A stretch of DNA of 64,000 nt, taken from positions 1,312,501-1,376,500 of the forward strand of contig NZ_CP042466.1 in the NCBI RefSeq assembly GCF_008330225.1, read 5' to 3'. The notes below the pieces were generated by a model, which did no database searches, was not told where the DNA came from, and saw only the letters and a program-made list of their open reading frames with translations. Positions 5,147 to 64,000 of the stretch are shown in pieces. The stretch is from Geobacter sp. FeAm09. GTDB taxonomy: Bacteria; Desulfobacterota; Desulfuromonadia; Geobacterales; Pseudopelobacteraceae. Made by a program: the position numbers and the translations under genes. Numbering within the stretch: position 1 is the stretch's first letter; every line of letters begins with the position of its first letter.

Positions 5147-5346
5147 GGTTGTTGAAAAACAGCCACCTCGCCGCCGTCCTCGAACGCCCTTTCGCGCGGC
5201 GTAGCGCCCCTCATCCTATCCTTCTCCCAAAGGGAGAAGGGATACCGTTGCCCTCTCCCCCCGGGAGAGGGTGGCCAAAGGCCGGGTGAGGGCCTCTTCA
5301 GGGCTTGTCGAGCGGGTGCGACGATCTGACTATTTTTGAACAACCT
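5147..5346. repeat. MITE-like palindromic repeat, copy 1 (with nested REP)
   Basis: It starts GTTGTTGAAAAACAGCCA and ends TATTTTTGAACAACCT, an inverted pair. The outer arms match the copies at 58704-58823 and 63855-64000. The middle, which in copy 2 is a GGCGTAGC...GCTACGCC hairpin, is here interrupted by a REP-like palindrome (5207-5292). No protein is encoded, so any movement would need an enzyme in trans. Confidence 0.75.
5207..5292. repeat. REP-like palindrome nested in MITE copy 1
   Basis: CCCCTCATCC and CTTCTCCC...GGGAGAAGG, then CCCTCTCC...GGAGAGGG and GGCCGGGTGAGGG form two stacked hairpins. On the opposite strand the same family is seen inside nuoG at 15553-15642. Confidence 0.75.
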
Positions 5347-7326: not shown

Positions 7327-7365
7327 AAATCCGCCACTGAGACGCAGAGGACGTCAAAGACAGAA
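7327..7365. repeat. Dispersed CACAGAG-type repeat, single arm (R1)
   Basis: Reads CCGCCACTGAGACGCAGAGG then GACGTCAAAGACAGAACC. The second part is the reverse complement of the inner flank of the element at 31427-31637 (GGTTCTGCTTTTGACGTC), so this is one half of that element. It lies upstream of trpF. Confidence 0.65.
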
Positions 7366-7381
7366 CCTATTTGTCCGTTAT

Positions 7382-8777: not shown

Positions 8778-8968
8778 CATCTGCCACAGAGACACTGAGG
8801 AAAGGCAAAACTATCAAACCGGATAAAATCCAACGTCTGCCACGGAGACACGGAGACACAGAGAAAACCAATACAATCAAACTGAAGGGTAAAACGAATC
8901 TCAGGCCGTTAGCAAAATGGACTTCGCTTTGTCTCTATGCAGTTCTCTGTGTCTCCGTGGCAGATGTG
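8778..8968. repeat. Dispersed CACAGAG-type repeat with three arms (R2)
   Basis: Two direct arms (8779-8806 CTGCCACAGAGACACTGAGG and 8835-8868 CTGCCACGGAGACACGGAGA) face one inverted arm (8927-8966, ending TCTCCGTGGCAGATG). It fills the gap between hom and the TrpB2 gene and may carry the TrpB2 promoter. Confidence 0.8.
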
Positions 8969-10333: not shown

Positions 10334-10539
10334 TTCTGCCACAGAGACACGGAGACACAGAGAAAACCAAAAACATTTTTACATGGATGAACAGGATGAA
10401 AGGGATAAAACTTGAAAACCGGTTATAGATAAAATCTTAAAGCTGTTTATGTCGTTATCCTGTTTATCCTGTTCATCCATGTAAAATAGGTTCTGCTTTT
10501 GACTTTCTCTGTGTCTCCGTGTCTCTGTGGCAGATTTTA
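10334..10539. repeat. Nested palindromic element of the CACAGAG family (R3)
   Basis: Outer arms TTCTGCCACAGAGACACGGA (10334) and TCTGTGTCTCCGTGTCTC...GGCAGATTTTA (to 10539) face each other. Inside is a second inverted pair: TTTACATGGATGAACAGGAT (10377) and ATCCTGTTCATCCATGTAAA (near 10485). The right end contains the TAA stop of nusB (10537-10539). Same layout as the element at 31427-31637. Confidence 0.85.
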
Positions 10540-14896: not shown

Positions 14897-16858
14897 CTAC
14901 ACCGACTCCTTCAACCTCTTCCCATCCCCCTTCACATCCAACCCCTTTAACCCTGCCCAAGGCCCGCTCAGCGGCTCCTCCACCTCTGCCTCGCCCAGGC
15001 GCTGCATGAGGGCGGCGATGAGCCGTGCCGACGGGGCCACGTCGCCGCCGGGGGCTGCCTTGCCGTGGGTGCGGGGCGGGTGCAGTTCGGGGGTGAGCCC
15101 CTTGATGGGGAGGCCGGGGTTCATCACCTTGTTGAACCGTTGGGCGCGCCCCTCGTTATTGACGTAGATCCCCTCCTGCTCCACCCAGGCGGTGGTGGGG
15201 AGGAACACCCCGGCCCGCGCCGTGAGCCGGGTGGACCGCCAGTCGGCGGCGGCCAGCACGTCGATCCCCGGCGACAGGTCGCGGGGGAGGTCGGCCTCAA
15301 AGGAGATGATCCCCCTGATCCGGCTGTCGGCCAGGGCCGTGGAGAGCGCCACGGCGTTGTGTTGCCGCGCCAGTTCGGCGCAGCCGAAGGCGTTGGGGCC
15401 GTCCAGGATAAAGGCCAGTTTGGCGGTGCGGGGGACTGACTGCACCGCCTCCAGTCCTTCCGTGGTGGCGCCGCAGATGACGACCGGGCGCTTGGCCTGT
15501 GCCAGGGGGACGTCTGAAATGGCGGCGACGTGCTCGAATGGGAAGGGCAGTTCTCCCCTCACCCGGCCTTCGGCCACCCTCTCCCGTAGGGCGAGGGTAT
15601 GATTTGTGCCTTCTCCCTCGGGGAGAAGGTCGGGATGAGGGGTTATGACGTAAATTTTTGCCCCGCTCCGCCACGCCTGGCGCACGGCCAGGGCCATCAT
15701 GGGGGCCTCATTCAGCAGGTCGCACCCCACGATGGCGATCAGGTCGGCCTTGCGCACGTCCTCCTGAGAGGCGCTGTTGTCCGCCATCAGCAATGCGGTT
15801 GCCGTGCCGGTCAGTTCGGCCTGCTCCGGATCATCGAAATAGCAGAGCGCCCCGGCACCCAGCAGTTCCGCCAGGCGCGCCGCCATGATGTTCCCCTCCA
15901 GGTCCATGCGGGGCGAGCCGACGATGGCCAGGGCCTGGGGGCCGTGCAGTTCCAGGAAATCGCCCAGGCGGGTCGCCACCGCGTCCAGCGCCTCGTCCAG
16001 GCCGACCGGCCTGCCGTCCACCAATGCTTGGCGGGGGCGTTCCGGGGCGTTGACCATGGCGTTGGCAAAGCGTCCCTTGTCGCAGATGAACCAGCCGTTG
16101 ACCTGGTCGTTCCTGCGGGCCGTGGTCTTGAGCAGTTCCCGGTAGCGGGCCATGGGGACAGTGTTGCACCCCAGGGAGCAGTGGGGGCAGATGGAGGGGG
16201 CCATGTCGTAGTCCCAGTAACGGGCGCGGAAGCGGGCGGTCTTGTCGGTGAAGACCCCGGTGGGGCAGATGTCCACCAGGTTGCCGGAGAAGGGGGACTC
16301 AAGCGGCCCCTCTTCCTGGCGGCCGAAATAGATCGTGGCGGCCCTGCCCATGACGCCGAAGTCGGTGCCCCCGGCGTACTCCTGGTAGAAGCGGGCGCAG
16401 CGGTAGCACTGGATGCAGCGGTTCATCTCGTGCTCGATGTACTCGCCCAGGTACTGGTTGGTGTAGGTGCGCTTCTTGCCGTCGTAGCGCCGGATGCCGT
16501 GGCCGCCGGCGATGGTGAAGTCCTGCAACTGGCACTCGCCCCCCTCGTCGCACACCGGGCAGTCGTGGGGGTGGTTGATCATCAGCCATTCGATGACGCT
16601 CTTGCGCATGGCCACAGCCTCGCCGTCGGTGGTGGATACCACCATGCCGTCCTGGGCCGGGAGCATGCAGGACATCTGCACCCCCTTCACCGGGCCGTCC
16701 AGCATCTTAACGGCACAAACCCGGCACGCGCCGGCCTTGCCCAGGGCAGGATGCCAGCAGAAATGGGGGATGGGGATGTCCACGGATTGGGCGGCCTCCA
16801 GCACCGTGGTGCCCTCGGGGACTTCAACCGGTATGTCGTCGATGATGAGCTTTGGCAT
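14897..16858 (-). CDS. nuoG: NADH-quinone oxidoreductase subunit G-like protein, with in-frame REP insertion
   Basis: 653 residues. N-terminal [2Fe-2S] domain (HFCWHPALGKAGACRVCA...SCMLPAQ), His-ligated cluster motif HPHDCPVCDEGGECQLQD, CIQCYRCARF and DICPTGVFTDK cluster sites, then CPHCSLGCNT of the molybdopterin-oxidoreductase-like domain. It passes electrons from NuoF through a chain of iron-sulfur clusters. Residues about 405-437 (PHPDLLPEGEG...ALRERVAEGRVRG) are encoded by a REP-like palindrome inserted in frame. It follows nuoE and nuoF but is separated from nuoF by a GxxExxY element. No membrane nuo genes are in the window, so the partner complex could be complex I or a soluble NADH-linked enzyme. 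Confidence 0.9.
   Translation of the reverse strand: MPKLIIDDIPVEVPEGTTVLEAAQSVDIPIPHFCWHPALGKAGACRVCAVKMLDGPVKGVQMSCMLPAQDGMVVSTTDGEAVAMRKSVIEWLMINHPHDCPVCDEGGECQLQDFTIAGGHGIRRYDGKKRTYTNQYLGEYIEHEMNRCIQCYRCARFYQEYAGGTDFGVMGRAATIYFGRQEEGPLESPFSGNLVDICPTGVFTDKTARFRARYWDYDMAPSICPHCSLGCNTVPMARYRELLKTTARRNDQVNGWFICDKGRFANAMVNAPERPRQALVDGRPVGLDEALDAVATRLGDFLELHGPQALAIVGSPRMDLEGNIMAARLAELLGAGALCYFDDPEQAELTGTATALLMADNSASQEDVRKADLIAIVGCDLLNEAPMMALAVRQAWRSGAKIYVITPHPDLLPEGEGTNHTLALRERVAEGRVRGELPFPFEHVAAISDVPLAQAKRPVVICGATTEGLEAVQSVPRTAKLAFILDGPNAFGCAELARQHNAVALSTALADSRIRGIISFEADLPRDLSPGIDVLAAADWRSTRLTARAGVFLPTTAWVEQEGIYVNNEGRAQRFNKVMNPGLPIKGLTPELHPPRTHGKAAPGGDVAPSARLIAALMQRLGEAEVEEPLSGPWAGLKGLDVKGDGKRLKESV
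15553..15642. repeat. REP-like palindrome inside the nuoG reading frame
   Basis: CCCTCACCCGGCCTTCGGCC, CCCTCTCCCGTAGGGCGAGGG, CTTCTCCCTCGGGGAGAAGG (in part) and GGGATGAGGGG form stacked hairpins. It matches the nested palindrome at 5207-5292 in reverse orientation. It keeps the frame open and adds about 30 residues. Confidence 0.85.
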
Positions 16859-16877: not shown

Positions 16878-17443
16878 AAAATCTGCCACAGAGACACGGA
16901 GACACAGAGGAAGTCAAAGGCGAAAGGCTTTGGGTAAAGATAATTCAGTCCCGGCCGTGGTGTCTTAGAGAATAATCCTTGTGACTCCGTCTTTCAGTAC
17001 AGGAACGTTGAAATTTATGAGCAGACCCAACTTTTTTCTGTCAGTTTCAGATAGCTTAAAAGCTGGGCCTTGAACACTGATTCGATTCTTTCGACAGCCT
17101 TGAGTTCAACGATGATCTCATCTTCTACCAGCAAGTCGAGACGGTGGTCTCCCAAGCTGGTACCCTTATAAACAATCGGTATGACGGCTTGGCTCTGAAA
17201 GCTCAAGCCACTGGAATGCAGTTCATGGCACAACGCTTTTTCGTAAATGCCTTCCAAAAGCCCCGGCCCCAGATTTCGGTGAACCTCAATGGCGCAGCCA
17301 ATAATTTTATCCGTGAGTCCGTTAATGGCTTTCTCCTTGTCCCGAGTCAGATGTCAGCCTGTAAGGTTAAACCCTATAAACGTTTTTATGCATCTGCCGT
17401 TAAAGGTTTTCTCTGTGTCTCCGTGTCTCTGTGGCAGATTTTA
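16878..17443. mobile_element. CACAGAG-end element carrying a GxxExxY gene (R4)
   Basis: Left arm AAAATCTGCCACAGAGACAC (from 16878) and right arm GTGTCTCTGTGGCAGATTTT (to 17442) are inverted copies. Between them lies one decayed GxxExxY gene. The element sits exactly between nuoF and nuoG. Its right end gives the TAA stop of nuoF. The other loci with the same ends lack the gene, so this may be the full-length member of the family. Confidence 0.7.
16965..17350 (-). pseudogene. GxxExxY protein, PD-(D/E)XK-like, frameshifted
   Basis: The longest clean frame is 17015-17257, but homology-like sequence runs further on both sides. Upstream, in frame, lie LTDKIIGCAIEVHRNLGPG and LLEGIYEKAL (the GxxExxY signature), with no ATG/GTG/TTG before the in-frame TGA at 17354-17356; CTG at 17350 is the only near-start. 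Downstream, the frame breaks at a run of six A (17032-17037). One extra A, or a -1 slip, restores GLLINFNVPVLKDGVTRII and ends at 16965. Nuclease-like residues are visible in RLDLLV...IIVELKAV. It is either a decayed gene or one needing slippage. Confidence 0.75.
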
Positions 17444-18718
17444 GCCTTTAGCCGTTAGCCTTACAGGGCATTTCCCCCGGGTGATATGTTCCCGCACCTC
17501 GTCCTCGAACAGTCTCAGCAGCCCTTCCACCGGGCCCATGGCGCCGGGGGCCAGGGCGCAGAAGGCGTAGTTCAGCTTGGCTACGTGCTCCCGCAGAACC
17601 TCGATGTCGGCCATGTCGCCGCGGCCCGCCTCGATCCGTTCCAGGATATGCCGCACAAAGGGGAGCCCCTCCCGGCAGGGAGTGCACCAGCCACAGGATT
17701 CGCGGGCAAAGAAGCGGACCAGGTTGAGGGTGGCGGCCACCATGCAGGTGGTCTGGTCGAAGACCACGATCCCGCCGGTACCCAGGCGCGAACCGGCCTT
17801 GGCCACCGGGTCGAAATCCATGGGCACTGTCCAGTGGTCCCGGGTGAAATAGGGGGTGGAGGCACCGCCGGGGATGCAGGCCTTGAAGGTGCTGCCGGGC
17901 CGCATGCCGCCGCAGTGGCTGTCGATGATCTCCCCCAGGGGGGTGCCGATGGGCAGTTCCAGGCAGAGTGGCCGCTGCACGTGGCCGCTGACGCAGAAGA
18001 GTTTGGTGCCTGCCCCCTCCGGGGTGGCGGCCAGGGCCTTGAACCAGTCCGGGCCGTGGGCGACGATGGCCGGGATGTTGGCCAGGGTCTCCACGTTGTT
18101 CACCACCGTGGGCTGGCCCCACAGCCCCTTGACGGCGGGAAAGGGGGGTTTGGAGCGGGGATTGGCCCGGATGCCCTCCAGGGCGTTCATGAGGGCGGTC
18201 TCCTCGCCGCAGATGTAGCGGCCGGCCGACTGGTGCACGTCCAGATCCAGATTGAATGTGCTGCCGCAGATGTTGGCGCCCAGGAAGCCGGCCTTGTGGG
18301 CCTCGGCGATGGAGCTCTTCAGGTTGAGGGCGGCCAGTTCGTAGCCGCGCCGGATGAAGATGAAGGCGTGTTCCACCCCCAGGGCGTAGCAGGCCAGGGC
18401 CATCCCCTCCACCAGCAGGTGGGGGTTGTGCTCCAGGAGTACCCGGTCCTTGTAGGTACCCGGCTCCATCTCGTCGCAGTTGCAGATCAGGTAGCGGGGA
18501 CCCGGCAGGTTGCGGGGGACGAAGGACCACTTTTTGCCCGTGGGGAACCCGGCCCCGCCGCGCCCCCGCAGGCCCGAGTCGATCACCGCCTGCTGCACCG
18601 CGTCGGGGGAGAGGTCGGCCAGGGCCGTTTCCAGGGCCCGGAAACCGCCTTGGGCCCGGTATTCGGCAAAGGTCACGGCCCGGTCGAGGCGGTCGTGTCT
18701 GAAGAGGATCTGGCTCAT
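17441..18718 (-). CDS. nuoF: NADH-quinone oxidoreductase subunit F
   Basis: 425 residues. NuoF oxidises NADH through FMN and passes electrons to a [4Fe-4S] cluster. FMN/NADH site: GLRGRGGAGFPTGKKW and CNCDEMEPGTYKDR; then ICGEETALMNALEG and the cluster motif ESCGWCTPCREG with a fourth Cys in NYAFCALAPGA. It starts one base after nuoE ends. Its stop TAA (17441-17443) is part of the end of repeat element R4, so the last residues (RLTAKG) may be altered relative to an element-free ancestor. Confidence 0.95.
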   Translation of the reverse strand: MSQILFRHDRLDRAVTFAEYRAQGGFRALETALADLSPDAVQQAVIDSGLRGRGGAGFPTGKKWSFVPRNLPGPRYLICNCDEMEPGTYKDRVLLEHNPHLLVEGMALACYALGVEHAFIFIRRGYELAALNLKSSIAEAHKAGFLGANICGSTFNLDLDVHQSAGRYICGEETALMNALEGIRANPRSKPPFPAVKGLWGQPTVVNNVETLANIPAIVAHGPDWFKALAATPEGAGTKLFCVSGHVQRPLCLELPIGTPLGEIIDSHCGGMRPGSTFKACIPGGASTPYFTRDHWTVPMDFDPVAKAGSRLGTGGIVVFDQTTCMVAATLNLVRFFARESCGWCTPCREGLPFVRHILERIEAGRGDMADIEVLREHVAKLNYAFCALAPGAMGPVEGLLRLFEDEVREHITRGKCPVRLTAKG

Positions 18719-21549: not shown

Positions 21550-21722
21550 CCTGAATCCGTGGCTCCCTCACGGCTTCGCTCGCTTCCCGCCTCTGTCTTT
21601 GCGTGGCCGGCCGTGTCTTCTCCTGGGCGGAGGACGAACGGCGCAGGCGGCATGGTGCTTCATGAGCGGCGTTGGACTCCGGCCAGTCGCTCGCTCCGCC
21701 GGTCGGGCGCCACGGATTCAGG
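21550..21722. repeat. Long imperfect palindrome between DUF507 and DUF815 genes
   Basis: CCTGAATCCGTGGC (21550-21563) faces GCCACGGATTCAGG (21709-21722), with further partial pairing inside (TCGCTCGC...). It is about 173 bases, codes for nothing convincing, and looks like another small mobile or REP-type unit. I see no second copy of it in this window. Confidence 0.6.
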
Positions 21723-21756
21723 CAACAGCCACTTCACAACAGAAAGACCACAGCCC

Positions 21757-22652: not shown

Positions 22653-22875
22653 TTCCGCCACAGAGACGCGGAGACACAGAGGTACACAGAGAAAAACGGA
22701 AAGACAATCAAAGCAAAAGCAAGGTAATCAAACTGAATAGGTAACAACGAATCATTCAGGAATTAGTTATGCGCCTCGGAACCACTGAGATAAATATTCC
22801 AGAGGGTTAGACAGTATTTTGGCCGAATAAAAAACTCTGTGATTTACTCTGTGTCTCTGCGTCTCTGTGGCAAAA
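22653..22875. repeat. CACAGAG-family element with two facing arms (R6)
   Basis: TTCCGCCACAGAGACGCGGA at 22653 and TCTGTGTCTCTGCGTCTCTG near 22846-22868 face each other across about 170 bases. It lies 15 bases past the DUF815 stop and just upstream of the transglycosylase gene. No gene is inside. Confidence 0.8.
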
Positions 22876-26665: not shown

Positions 26666-26785
26666 ATGCGCCTTTTCCGCAATCCCGGCGTTGACCTTCG
26701 GGATGCTGTCGTGCGGCGTAGCGCTGCTACGCCTCCTCGGCATCCCTCGGTCGCCTTGGCCTTGCGAAAAAATCGCATCCACTAG
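26661..26785. repeat. Palindromic repeat between hisI and hisG
   Basis: The centre GGCGTAGCGCTGCTACGCC is a perfect hairpin identical to the core of MITE copy 2 (58704-58823), framed by GGATGC...GCATCC. Weaker outer arms (TGCGCCTTTTCCGCAA / TTGCGAAAAAATCGCA) differ from the AGGTTGTTG ends. It is therefore a relative or a hybrid. It begins at the end of hisI and may affect hisI-hisG read-through. Confidence 0.65.
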
Positions 26786-29125: not shown

Positions 29126-29163
29126 CCCTCTGTGTCTCCGCGTCTCTGTAGAGGCCGATTTCA
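29126..29163. repeat. Dispersed CACAGAG-type repeat, single arm (R8)
   Basis: CCCTCTGTGTCTCCGCGTCT then CTGTAGAGGCCGATTT, a single worn arm after the pseudouridine synthase gene. Confidence 0.55.
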
Positions 29164-31426: not shown

Positions 31427-31637
31427 CAAATCTGCATCTCACAGAGCGCACAGAGGCACAGAGAAAAATCGAATTTACAGGGATGAACAGGATAACAACA
31501 TATAATCATGAAAAAGGTTATGTCTTTACCCAAAATCTGGTTTCAGGTTATATCCCCTTCATCCTGTTCATCCTTGTAAATAGGTTCTGCTTTTGACGTC
31601 CTCTGTGCCTCTGTGCGCTCTGTGAGATGCAGATTTA
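31427..31637. repeat. Nested palindromic element of the CACAGAG family (R9)
   Basis: Outer arms CTGCATCTCACAGAGCGCAC (31432) and GTGCGCTCTGTGAGATGCAG (to 31632) are perfect inverted copies. An inner pair TTTACAGGGATGAACAGGAT / ATCCTGTTCATCCTTGTAAA lies inside. The layout is as in R3 (10334-10539). The right end carries the TAA stop (31635-31637) of the alcohol dehydrogenase. Confidence 0.88.
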
Positions 31638-39033: not shown

Positions 39034-39243
39034 CGGCCCGGGCGTTCCGGAGGGATCGGATGGCTTCCTGGAACAGGGTGCGACGACCACATGCCGAAGC
39101 CGCCGGAGGCCGGGACGCTGAACGAAAAGCTGCCGCGGCTGGCCCTGGCATCCGGGTGGCGGCGTTTGCGTACTCCCCGTTTTTCTGTGGTATAGTAGTT
39201 CCGTCTAACCATTTTTCGGGCATTTTGCCACCAGGGGGACACC

Positions 39244-39906: not shown

Positions 39907-42648
39907 TTGACCGAAAAACCTAAGCCGGGACAGGCGAGGCCGCTCACCGCCGCTCCCCTGGAAACCGCTCTCAACCTGTATTCTTCCGGGCGATTCGAAG
40001 AAGCCTTGGCGATGGCCGTGGGTACGCTGGGCACCGAACCCCGGAACGGCATGGCCCTGAACATAGCCGCCGCCTGCTCCCGATGCCTGGGCAGGGGGGC
40101 AGACGCCGAAGCCTACTGGACGAAGGTGGTGCAGCTCAACCCCAGCTCGGCCGAGGCGTACAATAACCTGGGGGTCCTGTACCAGGAGCAGCAACGCTTT
40201 GCCGAGGCTGAAGCCTGCCACCAGCGCGCCATCGTCATCCGCCCGGATTACGTGGAAGCGTACAGCAACCTGGGCAGCCTGTTCCAGGCGGTGGAACGCC
40301 TCGACGATGCCGAGGCCCGTTACCGGCAGGCGCTGGCCATCTCACCCGACTGTGCCGAGGTTCACAACAACCTGGCCAACCTGCTCCAGCGAATGGAGCG
40401 CTTCAGGGAGGCCGAGACCTGCTATCGGCACGCCCTGTCCGTTCGCCCGGCGTACGGGGAGGCGCATTACAACTACGGCAACCTGCTCAAGCGGGTGCAG
40501 CGCCCGGACGAGGCCGAAGCCAGCTACCGGCGGGCCCTGGCCATCCATCCGAACCACGCCGAGGCGCACTACAATCTGGGCGTCCTGCTCAGGGAGCAGG
40601 GGCGTTCCGGCGAGGCCGAGGCCTGCTGCCGGCAGGCGCTGGCCCTGCGCCCCAACTACGCCGAGGCGTACAACACCCTGGGTGGGGTGTTCAGGGAACA
40701 GAAGCGCCCCGGTGATGCCGAAGCCAGCTACCGGCGCGCCCTTGCCCTCCTGCCGGACTATCGGGATGCCCACTGCAATCTGGGGGAGCTGCTCCAGGAG
40801 CAAAAACGCTTTAGGGAGGCCGAGGCTGCCTATCGCCAGGCGTTGGCCCTGCGCCCCGGGGATGCGGAGACCTTACTCAATCTGGGGGTCGTGCTCCACG
40901 AACAGCAGCGTCGGGACGAAGCCGAGGCCTGTTATCGCCAGGCGCTGGCCTCACGCCCCGATTACGGCGAGGCCTGGTACAACCTGGCCGTTCTTCTCCA
41001 GGGGCAGAAACGCCTGGCCGAGGCCGAGGCGGCCTACCGGCAGGTCCTTGCCGTTCGCCCCGACTGGGTGGCCGCCCACTACAATCTGGGGGTCCTGCTC
41101 CGGGAACAGGGCCGCTTCACGGAGGCTGAAGCCTGTTACCGGCAGGCGCTCGCCCTCTGCCCCGACTCCGGGGATGCCCTCTACAACCTGGCGGGACTGC
41201 TCAAGGAGCTGGGGCGTTCCGACGAGTCCGAGGAGTATTACCGGCGTTTTTTGGCTCTGCATCCCGATCACGGCGAGGCGCACAATAATCTGGCCATTCT
41301 CCTCCAGGGGCTGAAACGCTACGGCGAGGCCGAGGCCTGTTACCGCCGGGCGCTGGCCCTTCATCCCGGCCGGGTGGAAACGTACCTGAATCTGGGGAAC
41401 CTGTTCAAGGAACAGCAACGCCCGGGTGAGGCCGAGACCTGCTACCGTCAGGCGCTCGCCCTCCAGCCCGAACGTGCGGAGACGTACTACAACCTGGGGG
41501 TGCTGCTCTATGAGCAGGATCGCTACGACGAGGCAGAGGCCCGTTACCGGCAGGCCCTGGCCCTGTGCCCGGACCACGCGGAAGCGCTGTACAACCTGGG
41601 GGCCCTGGTGCGGGACCTGCGGCGGTTCGACGAGGCCGAGGCCTGCTACCGGCGCGCCGCTGCCCTGCGTCCCGACTATGCGGAGGCGCGCTGGAACCTG
41701 GGGCTTCTCCTTCTTTTCCTGGGGCGGTTCGCCGAGGGGTGGCGGCTCTACGAGATGCGCTACGATACAAGCTGGGAGCACGCGCCGTGCCGAGCGCCGC
41801 AGGTCGCCTGTCCTCCCTGGAGGGGGCAGGACCTGCGCGGCACGTCGCTCCTCATCTGGCCGGAGCAGGGGTTCGGCGACGAGATCCAGTTTGTCCGCTA
41901 TGTCCCGCTTTTGAAGGCGCGCGGCGCCGCCCGGATCACCCTGGTGTGCAAGGGGGCGCTGAAATCGCTCTTCCTCCATGCCGCCACCGGGGCCGACCAG
42001 ATCCTCTCCCTGGATGAGGCGGGGGAGGCGGGACCTCACGATTACTGGACCAGCCTGCTCAGTCTCCCGCACCATCTGGGGACGGCGCTGGAGACCATTC
42101 CTGCCGGACTTCCCTACCTTGGGGCGGGGAGCGACGGACTCCGCCAGTGGAAGGGACGGCTCCCCGCGGCGGGACGAAAGGTCGGGCTGGTATGGAAGGG
42201 GGCGGCCGGCCACAAAAACGACGCCCACCGTTCGCTCCCGGGGCTCGCCGCCCTCGCCCCCCTCTGGTCGGTCGCCGGGGTTGCCTTTGTCAGCCTGCAA
42301 AAGGGCATGGGAGAGGAAGAAGGGCTCGCCCCGCCCCCCGGCCAGCCGCTCGTGCACCTCGGGTCGGAGGTCGGGGATTTCGCCGATACGGCGGCCATTG
42401 TGGCGCAGCTCGATCTGGTGATCTGCGTGGATACGGCCGTGGCCCATGTGGCCGGGGCGCTCGGCAAGCCGTGCTGGGTGCTGCTCCCCTTCATCGGTAC
42501 GGACTGGCGCTGGCTGGACAATCGCGAGGACTCCCCCTGGTATCCGGGAGTTATGCGCCTGTTCCGTCAGACGGCCATGGGTGATTGGGATGGGGTGGTG
42601 CGACGGGTGAGCGGTGCGTTGGCGCGGTTTGCCGCCGGGGCGGCGTGA
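39907..42648 (+). CDS. Giant TPR protein with C-terminal glycosyltransferase domain
   Basis: 913 residues with a TTG start; ATT just before it and a later in-frame start are alternatives. Residues about 45-600 are some sixteen nearly identical 34-residue TPR units of the type EAEACYRQALALRPDYAEA. Residues about 610-905 are a GT-B-like domain: LLIWPEQGFGDEIQFVRYVP, GLVWKGAAGHKNDAHRS, FVSLQKGMGEEE, DLVICVDTAVAHVAGALGKP and DWRWL. This resembles heptosyltransferase (GT9)/OGT-like TPR enzymes. It probably glycosylates a protein or envelope glycan. No signal peptide is visible. The repeats at DNA level make copy-number change likely. Confidence 0.88.
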   Translation: MTEKPKPGQARPLTAAPLETALNLYSSGRFEEALAMAVGTLGTEPRNGMALNIAAACSRCLGRGADAEAYWTKVVQLNPSSAEAYNNLGVLYQEQQRFAEAEACHQRAIVIRPDYVEAYSNLGSLFQAVERLDDAEARYRQALAISPDCAEVHNNLANLLQRMERFREAETCYRHALSVRPAYGEAHYNYGNLLKRVQRPDEAEASYRRALAIHPNHAEAHYNLGVLLREQGRSGEAEACCRQALALRPNYAEAYNTLGGVFREQKRPGDAEASYRRALALLPDYRDAHCNLGELLQEQKRFREAEAAYRQALALRPGDAETLLNLGVVLHEQQRRDEAEACYRQALASRPDYGEAWYNLAVLLQGQKRLAEAEAAYRQVLAVRPDWVAAHYNLGVLLREQGRFTEAEACYRQALALCPDSGDALYNLAGLLKELGRSDESEEYYRRFLALHPDHGEAHNNLAILLQGLKRYGEAEACYRRALALHPGRVETYLNLGNLFKEQQRPGEAETCYRQALALQPERAETYYNLGVLLYEQDRYDEAEARYRQALALCPDHAEALYNLGALVRDLRRFDEAEACYRRAAALRPDYAEARWNLGLLLLFLGRFAEGWRLYEMRYDTSWEHAPCRAPQVACPPWRGQDLRGTSLLIWPEQGFGDEIQFVRYVPLLKARGAARITLVCKGALKSLFLHAATGADQILSLDEAGEAGPHDYWTSLLSLPHHLGTALETIPAGLPYLGAGSDGLRQWKGRLPAAGRKVGLVWKGAAGHKNDAHRSLPGLAALAPLWSVAGVAFVSLQKGMGEEEGLAPPPGQPLVHLGSEVGDFADTAAIVAQLDLVICVDTAVAHVAGALGKPCWVLLPFIGTDWRWLDNREDSPWYPGVMRLFRQTAMGDWDGVVRRVSGALARFAAGAA

Positions 42649-58703: not shown

Positions 58704-58823
58704 AGGTTGTTGAAAAACAGCCATCTCGCCGCCTCCTCGAAAGCCCCTTTGTGCGGCGTAGCGCTGCTACGCCTCCGTGGGACTTCCTCCGGGGGCGACG
58801 ATCTGACTGTTTTTGAACAACCT
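58704..58823. repeat. MITE-like palindromic repeat, copy 2 (simplest form)
   Basis: AGGTTGTTGAAAAACAG and CTGTTTTTGAACAACCT are inverted ends matching at 16 of 17 bases, with a central GGCGTAGCGCTGCTACGCC hairpin. It is 120 bases long, between pfkA and tatC, and ends two bases before the tatC stop codon. Confidence 0.85.
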
Positions 58824-63854: not shown

Positions 63855-64000
63855 AGGTTGTCGAAAAACAGCCATCAGGCCTTCGTCCTCGAAAGCCCTT
63901 TCGTGCGGCGTAGCGCCCGGCCTTCGCAGCCAACGCTGCTTCGGCGGAGTAGGCCTGCTACGCCTCCTCAGGGCTTGTCGAGCGGGTGCAGCGATCTGAC
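63855..64000. repeat. MITE-like palindromic repeat, copy 3 (cut by window end)
   Basis: It begins AGGTTGTCGAAAAACAG and shares CTCAGGGCTTGTCGAGCGGG with copy 1 near its right end. The core GCGGCGTAGCGCC...GGCCTGCTACGCC is longer than in copy 2. The closing arm lies beyond the window. Confidence 0.75.

Follow-up and report, generated by a model that had tools for sequence, protein, structure and literature searches.

The unit between nuoF and nuoG

The 64,000-nucleotide stretch of DNA analysed here (the window) carries a small unit between nuoF and nuoG, at positions 16878-17442. Two inverted arms of 35 nt each face one another across a single GxxExxY reading frame, and the unit contains no gene besides that frame. 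The features of the locus are as follows.

14897..16858, minus strand: nuoG, downstream neighbour of the unit; reading frame not broken by the unit
16878..16912, plus strand: inverted end on the nuoG side; AAAATCT, then three heptamers GCCACAGAG ACACGGAG ACACAGAG at 8-nt spacing
16965..17040, minus strand: C-terminal part of the GxxExxY domain (KKLGLLINFNVPVLKDGVTRIIL), shifted by a frameshift in the A6 run at 17032-17037
17018..17350, minus strand: main part of the domain of a GxxExxY (TIGR04256/PF13366) pseudogene, without start codon; E, D..ExK and QxxxY residues retained
17408..17442, minus strand: inverted end on the nuoF side, 97% complementary to the nuoG-side arm
17441..18718, minus strand: nuoF, upstream neighbour of the unit; its stop codon abuts the end of the unit

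A sequence-only reading of this DNA had described facing ends of some thirty bases around one GxxExxY gene. The arms bear this out, as do profile searches in which the frame scored 124.9 bits against TIGR04256 (cut-off 35, E = 2e-36) and 119.3 bits against PF13366 (cut-off 22). The same reading had the unit splitting nuoF and nuoG; it does sit between the two genes, but neither of them is interrupted.

The window copy is the only match to PF13366 in the 4.10-Mb genome at E ≤ 0.001, and it is dead: a pseudogene of the family in which the start codon is missing and one frameshift has occurred. The first TTG (17257) falls within the motif, leaving no usable start ahead of the domain, and the C-terminal stop (16965-16967) lies in another frame owing to the A6 frameshift. 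We rejected programmed frameshifting as an explanation for the A6 run: its phase does not match that of the usual slippery heptamer, and a start codon is absent as well. The protein is 70% identical to that of locus L096, whose ends likewise start with GCCACAG (left arm). Folded as RNA, the whole unit is far more stable than 100 shuffles of it (z = -7.7).

In 30 aligned GxxExxY proteins E23 (of the GxxExxY motif), D63, E73, K75, Q87 and Y91 are invariant. A more diverse alignment, holding 45 proteins from the 80 named loci, keeps E73 and Y91 in at least 90% of sequences and the other four without exception. A PD-(D/E)XK core together with a QxxxY motif is known from Cas4 and RecB. The PD-(D/E)XK plus QxxxY signature is thus complete in the family. 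A structure model of a relative (L122, pLDDT 95.5) was nearest to SSO0001, which we take to be a Cas4 protein (Z 9.1, rmsd 3.8 over 98 residues; Foldseek E 1.8e-3), and Foldseek gave no match to this model at E ≤ 0.001. The next structures were restriction-enzyme-like, Hjc and AddB at Z 6-8, graded middling by the tool. Judged by its core residues and the modelled fold of the relative, GxxExxY is a Cas4/RecB-like member of the PD-(D/E)XK superfamily, and its proteins are putative nucleases. The fold and the E, D, ExK and QxxxY residues are shared with Cas4, RecB, AddB and lambda exonuclease, whereas GxxExxY is a single domain of ~115 residues that is linked to its own DNA ends.

Related ends in the window, the genome and its congeners

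Allowing up to 3 mismatches, a 20-mer from the end matches the window 9 times, where 0.01 matches would be expected. A looser 16-mer scan located eight further loci, four of them facing pairs, in agreement with the earlier statement that related ends occur alone or as empty pairs at eight other places in the window. These loci are listed below.

7334..7372, plus strand: solitary related end, decayed; congener G002 has a gene-less pair with a nested inner repeat at this site
8783..8802, plus strand: solitary end, 20-mer match (8784 in the 16-mer scan)
8839..8961, no strand: gene-less facing pair, 123 bp; 16-mer matches at 8840 and 8945
10338..10531, no strand: gene-less facing pair, 194 bp, inside which lies an inverted pair of a second unit type (ACATGGATGAACAGGAT); 16-mer matches at 10339 and 10515
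22657..22871, no strand: gene-less facing pair, 215 bp; 16-mer matches at 22658 and 22855
29133..29152, minus strand: solitary end, 20-mer match (29136 in the 16-mer scan)
31428..31636, no strand: gene-less pair, arms of 36 nt perfectly complementary, variant units CACAGAGCGCACAGAGGCACAGAG; 16-mer matches at 31448 and 31601
39175..39190, minus strand: solitary weak end match from the 16-mer scan, 3 mismatches in 16

Across the genome the end was matched 153 times at up to 3 mismatches (28 perfect), overlapping matches 8 nt apart being counted separately. The reversed pattern, used as a control, gave 81 matches; these are probably the same periodic repeats, because the reversed word itself resembles the 8-nt periodic pattern. 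From the genome list of end matches we picked by hand and read 41 facing pairs that have related ends and no gene, against one gene-bearing unit. Their lengths range from 93 to 278 bp (n = 38). When the ends of 40 units (39 gene-less and that of the window) are pooled, conservation runs inwards from AAAATCT, just outside GCCACAGAG; further out the sequence is AT-rich, with another AAA at -13 to -11. A GCCACAG start is present in 79 of these 80 ends (the search pattern began with G, mismatches being allowed), and the typical end in the genome consists of three heptamers in 8-nt steps.

The fourth base of each heptamer (positions 6, 14 and 22) is freely A or G, and T now and then. At these positions the two arms of a unit agree at 0.70, 0.50 and 0.55, against 0.67, 0.47 and 0.54 expected, a pattern more in keeping with a purine-reading protein than with a helix that has to pair. 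At the spacer base, position 10, the arms agree at 0.85 against 0.71 expected, and this leaves room for a hairpin. Overall, own arms agree at 21.2 of 24 positions and permuted arms at 20.9 (p = 0.03), the difference residing mainly in position 10. Arm covariation was therefore set aside as proof of a selected hairpin: it is weak when all positions are taken together and is not seen at the degenerate ones, though it is present at the spacer.

A nested second pair with the word GATGAACAGGAT is found in 8 of 38 gene-less pairs. It may derive from another GxxExxY lineage, since ends of a similar kind flank two GxxExxY genes elsewhere (L206, L215). The interiors of the gene-less pairs are related to one another: 230 of 1482 comparisons (741 pairs, both orientations) beat the best of up to 400 single-base shuffles, as would be expected of copies.

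Unit content at orthologous sites varies among congeners, as the sequence-only reading had proposed should be looked for. At the site of a GxxExxY unit with CACAAAG ends in G005, congener G004 has six bases and no unit between flanks that are 95% and 86% identical. The same site holds gene-less CACAGAG-type pairs in G000, G002 and G003 and a CGCGGAT-type hairpin in G001. A single ancestral unit could hardly have given rise to such different ends at the same site, and separate arrivals therefore seem the likelier history. This is the one gene-bearing unit with a clean empty site, at 86-95% flank identity. The gap between nuoF and nuoG measures 22-27 bases and holds no unit in G002, G004 and G005; G003 and G001 have remnants or a short pair there, and G026, from another family, has a GxxExxY unit of its own (L055). 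Gain and loss are indistinguishable at this site. By eye, the L055 copy seems to be without the ExK stretch and so looks decayed too. The other units of the window likewise differ among the five congeners. Together with the facing pairs, this turnover upholds the picture of a family of scattered units that have defined ends and include gene-less derivatives. At sites of window units in G002, G003 and G005 a further palindrome class with TATAGGAC/TTATGGGTC-like words was also seen (L190-L192).

Near-identical copies occur in two genomes. G009 has three units, 95-97% identical, in one array, and G112 has two within a 660-bp duplication. These may be products of plain duplication, because in G009 the identity extends past the right arm and in G112 the duplication borders are without heptamers. 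A target-site duplication was sought in two ways. With fixed offsets, the 40 genome units (39 gene-less and that of the window) gave no signal in 2798 offset tests (top z 2.8). With free offsets, 109 GxxExxY, 40 IVP, 24 DUF559 and 38 gene-less units gave no population signal; at k = 5 there were 24 own cases against 17.6 permuted (p = 0.06).

Gene families between inverted arms

Of the 141 genomes of the order, 116 contain PF13366, each in 1-10 copies. GxxExxY loci were taken from the genomes of the order, from seven genomes that were searched again and from 80 named loci of many phyla. Of 137 fetched, three that were asymmetric and four with less than 250 nt of flank were left out, giving 130 (L079 and L138, which share both protein and left arm, may be a single locus counted twice). 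Inverted arms with a score of at least 16 enclose the gene in 109 of the 130. At random positions with the same spacing this score was reached in 8/600 cases in the window, 14/600 in congener regions and 18/405 on the far side of named loci, and far windows of the same GxxExxY loci reached it once in 59. Pairing arms across different loci gave a score of 16 in 60/400, which is no clean control, as a common consensus runs through the ends of different loci. The idea that GxxExxY genes elsewhere would be flanked by such ends thus holds as regards facing arms; the end sequence, however, varies by protein lineage, and 21 loci fall below the threshold. Heptamer words can be seen by eye in L072, L128, L134, L144, L160 and L216 though these are sub-threshold, and some of the 109 have other inverted repeats without heptamers (e.g. 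L110, L117, L141).

At least two heptamers of the form C[AG]CN[AG]A[GAT] are present in 164 of 218 arms. Three per arm is the commonest number (107/218), and the steps are mostly 8 or 9 nt (117 and 124 cases), followed by 10 and 11 (35 and 17). The median span from arm to arm is 486 bp with the gene domain inside (109 loci), and therefore leaves no room for a usual transposase gene. Clear arms were found in Parachlamydiales, Spirochaetota, Planctomycetes, Acidobacteria, Chloroflexota, Nitrospinota, Verrucomicrobia, Ignavibacteria and Alpha- and Betaproteobacteria. The one archaeal locus in the set (L131) has none.

Eight of 72,556 plasmid records contain a GxxExxY gene. Five plasmid copies were viewed: arms surround those of Bacteroides finegoldii (between radA and the gene for a FAD-dependent protein), Sphingomonas (between fabD and fabG), Bernardetia and Gemmatirosa, and heptamer words are absent from the Prevotella copy. 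For plasmid matches H5 and H6 no near-identical empty site for GxxExxY was found. Carriage by phages was set aside, as neither a scan of IMG/VR with one GxxExxY protein as query nor tblastn against 50,697 phage records found a relative.

Two further gene families have the same layout. IVP (PF05635), a four-helix bundle, occurs in 41 of 60 genomes of the family and 69 of 118 of the phylum; G000 has no match at E ≤ 0.001. After 4 weak loci and 10 that were asymmetric or short of flank had been left out of 60, 40 of 46 IVP loci have arms, with words such as GTGAATG, TGGGGAC and TAGTGAC. DUF559 genes, found in 40 of 58 genomes of the order, were meant as a negative control. This failed, with arms of their own in 24 of 28 loci (2 of 30 left out), and random positions were used instead. 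The DUF559 arms form a third class (CCCTCCCC..GGGGAGGG and similar). A three-way leave-one-out 4-mer classifier assigned arms to families with an accuracy of 0.86, against 0.63 for the majority class (GxxExxY 94/109, IVP 31/40, DUF559 23/24). Because each of the three families has its own end class, DUF559 appears to be a third system and not background.

For IVP, related cyanobacterial plasmids with and without a unit could be compared. At site 1 (L346/L350-L354; ~97% identical, three empty records fetched) the empty sequence AAAAAGTAATTAAC becomes AAAAAGTAAT-unit-GTAATTAAC when occupied, a clear 5-base duplication. At site 2 (L347/L355-L358; 91-92% identical) TTCTA stands on either side of the unit in L347; the right copy is off by one base in L358, and TTCTA is present in only one of three empty sites. 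Both duplications, clear at site 1 and less so at site 2, overlap the stop codon of the upstream gene. From these two plasmid sites the IVP system seems to insert via a short staggered cut. We know of no nuclease activity for the four-helix-bundle fold of IVP, and the protein may instead act through host enzymes; with a different fold in the same architecture, nuclease activity may not be the common factor.

Within the GxxExxY family the spelling of the heptamers was compared with the protein tree. A heptamer label could be counted in 78 of the 109 armed loci (at least two heptamers in both arms), while in the rest the words are variant or the inverted repeats are of another kind. G is the last base in 68 loci, A in 7 and T in 3. 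On the protein tree this base changes twice, the minimum possible, against a mean of 9.7 when shuffled (0/200 as low), and the branch that separates G from the others has 97% support in a tree of few columns with many open forks. Protein and ends therefore look co-adapted; joint inheritance of the two would also be expected from physical linkage alone. The second base fits much more loosely (12 changes for 19 G rows). Inside the G group, clades are spelled CACAAAG (L088, L094, L120), CACGAAG (L107, L115, L143, L148) and CAACNGAG (the CAAC spelling; L075, L085, L090, L091), with CACGAAG also outside its clade in L086 and L176 and CACAAAG in L181. In G009 three units are of the CACGAAA type and a fourth is CGCGGAT, and G112 has CACGAAG, CACGAAA and CACGGAG units. 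As one genome can contain several types, the end type follows the protein rather than the host.

Tandem CAACNGAG was counted in 76 genomes of the family, 33 of which have any. Eight genomes, in which the best protein among those listed reaches 66% identity or more to a CAAC-type protein, have 9-60 tandem matches; of the remaining 68, 13 have more than two. Count and protein identity are correlated (Spearman 0.61, relatedness uncorrected and the gene's own arms included), the identities being those among the matches listed and genomes without a listed match (18/76) being set to 0. CAAC words occur in at least one arm of 10 of the 30 loci examined, all in genomes with 3-60 tandem CAAC matches. 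Among the 20 examined loci without CAAC arms, 8 are also in genomes with at least 3 CAAC matches, and G095, G118 and G097 have 20-51 matches with no CAAC-flanked gene among the loci examined.

Proposed mobility of the units and alternative explanations

The reading we favour, with moderate confidence, is a mobile system of gene plus ends, comparable to RAYT/REPIN and built on a Cas4/RecB-like PD-(D/E)XK protein. The architecture and its generality, the tie between clade and heptamer, the related interiors of the gene-less pairs and the turnover at orthologous sites are all matters of observation. They partly support the interpretation given in the sequence-only reading, whereas recognition of the heptamers by the GxxExxY protein, its nuclease activity and a part for it in movement are inferred. 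On this model the window unit would be a defunct copy of a small mobile element, with a single GxxExxY gene enclosed by inverted arrays of about three heptamers. In a live copy the protein would hold both arms by recognising in their arrays the heptamers that belong to its own lineage, and cutting at the heptamers, or the replication and repair functions of the host, would move or copy the unit. Its destination would be tight intergenic gaps, often within operons, where a strong RNA hairpin may let units sit. Gene-less pairs with the same ends would be non-autonomous copies moved in trans, which in the genome of the window far outnumber the gene. Weighing against this model are the absence of a target-site duplication signal for GxxExxY and gene-less units, the occurrence of such ends in G002 and G003, which have no GxxExxY gene, and the same architecture around IVP, a protein of another fold. 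That heptamer words differ between branches of the protein suggests a widespread, little-noticed kind of bacterial mobile unit.

As in RAYT/REPIN systems, the gene stands between inverted copies of a short repeat of its own, and many dispersed gene-less inverted pairs of ~100-200 bp accompany a scarce gene. RAYT is an HUH single-strand endonuclease, whereas the GxxExxY protein is of PF13366 with PD-(D/E)XK residues and no HUH/Y1 transposase. Moreover, the ends are tandem heptamers in place of the REP hairpin, and gene-bearing genomes of the order have 1-10 copies of the gene. Insertion sequences and MITEs also have terminal inverted repeats, gene-bearing and gene-less copies and site polymorphism. 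However, the only gene in a GxxExxY unit is no known transposase, there is no demonstrable target-site duplication, and the ends are short tandem words. With the rRNA intervening sequences (S23p/IVP, PF05635) the units share one small ORF between inverted ends and tolerance inside transcripts, but the ORF is PF13366 rather than a four-helix bundle and the unit class differs; nor do the units lie in rRNA, none of which was found in the window or in the 20 scanned of the 80 named loci. None of the literature matches listed ties GxxExxY or DUF559 to such repeat ends, and PDDEXK_3 is mentioned in none of the papers searched. There is a fair chance that the gene-plus-ends arrangement is a class of its own.

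It is possible, although unlikely, that the ends are themselves the mobile entity, spreading via host functions or at the RNA level, and that the GxxExxY gene is a passenger which binds the hairpin or guards the transcript. RNase III cutting of the long hairpin, as in rRNA intervening sequences, would then make insertions in operons tolerable. The folding of the whole unit as RNA and the slight excess of agreement between own arms lend this some weight, as does IVP, a family known from rRNA intervening sequences that has the same design. An intervening sequence of Coxiella is reported to have terminal repeats that form a 28-bp stem, to be excised by RNase III and to carry tandem heptamers next to its S23p ORF (PMC4990558). 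Gene-less pairs also persist in genomes without the gene: G002 and G003 have such ends and no GxxExxY gene. Yet the degenerate purine of the heptamer is near-independent between arms, contrary to selection for base pairing there, the last heptamer base tracks the protein clade, and the catalytic residues are invariant or nearly so.

A second alternative, which we judge improbable, sees the repeats as sites fixed in place, with a regulatory or structural role such as that of REP/BIME or terminators, and GxxExxY as a host protein acting on them without any transposition. The lack of a target-site duplication in GxxExxY and gene-less units would suit it. So would multicopy sequences of Geobacter, which in the accessible parts of two papers include four tandem heptanucleotides as putative regulatory elements (PMC2700814), palindromic and direct-repeat families of intergenic regions (PMC2996986) and octanucleotides, two per strand (PMC2700814, PMC2996986). 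Like the GxxExxY ends these are dispersed families, some with tandem hepta- or octanucleotides and some with inverted ends; in contrast to GxxExxY units, those parts do not link them to GxxExxY, IVP or DUF559 genes (PMC2700814, PMC2996986). Stationary sites are, however, at odds with the turnover among congeners, in which differing unit types occupy one site, with the related interiors of unlinked copies and with the presence of the gene inside arms in 109 of 130 loci. That the association is due to chance, or is shared by any small intergenic gene in repeat-rich genomes, is scarcely credible: DUF559, the intended negative control, is also armed and the remaining controls are random positions only, but those reach just 1.3-4.4% and the three gene families carry different end classes.

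Under the mobile-system reading, a wider proposal may be put forward tentatively. GxxExxY, IVP and DUF559, to our knowledge multicopy families without known function, could found a class of mobile units without a transposase, in which each protein reads its own tandem-word spelling in the inverted ends and protein and words co-evolve like key and lock. Much of the unexplained palindromic intergenic repeat content would then be their gene-less progeny. In many bacteria the spaces between genes are full of short palindromic repeats that are so far unexplained. With each protein family tied to its own end class, the function of the protein and the origin of the repeats both become testable, and the position of a protein in the tree would predict which repeats it served. 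If movement is true, a PD-(D/E)XK-based design would join the known ways in which small DNA units spread.

Several other repeats were seen in the window. Within the nuoG frame, at 15551-15650, there is an in-frame palindromic repeat of the CCCTCACCC/CCCTCTCCC type, like those flanking DUF559 at L325; its peptide reads PHPDLLPEGEG...LRERVAEGRVRG, and in congeners G001 and G004 this region seems to be of another length. A dispersed repeat of ~175 bp (CTGAATCCGTGG..CCACGGATTCAGG near its ends) lies at 21550-21723 and is ~72-85% alike at many sites in five congeners. At 40069-41694 there are fourteen tandem copies with a period of 102 nt, 60-72% alike to the reference, which we guess to be a 34-residue protein repeat. 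A 63-nt repeat starting GGTTGTTGAAAAACAGCCA occurs at 5147-5209, 58705-58767 and 63856-63918 (62-87% alike). The palindrome GTGCGGCGTAGCGCTGCTACGCC is present at 26711-26736, 58751-58776 and 63942-63967, and its core is that of a family of 24 predicted short RNAs of Geobacter metallireducens, according to the legend of Additional file 4 of PMC2700814.
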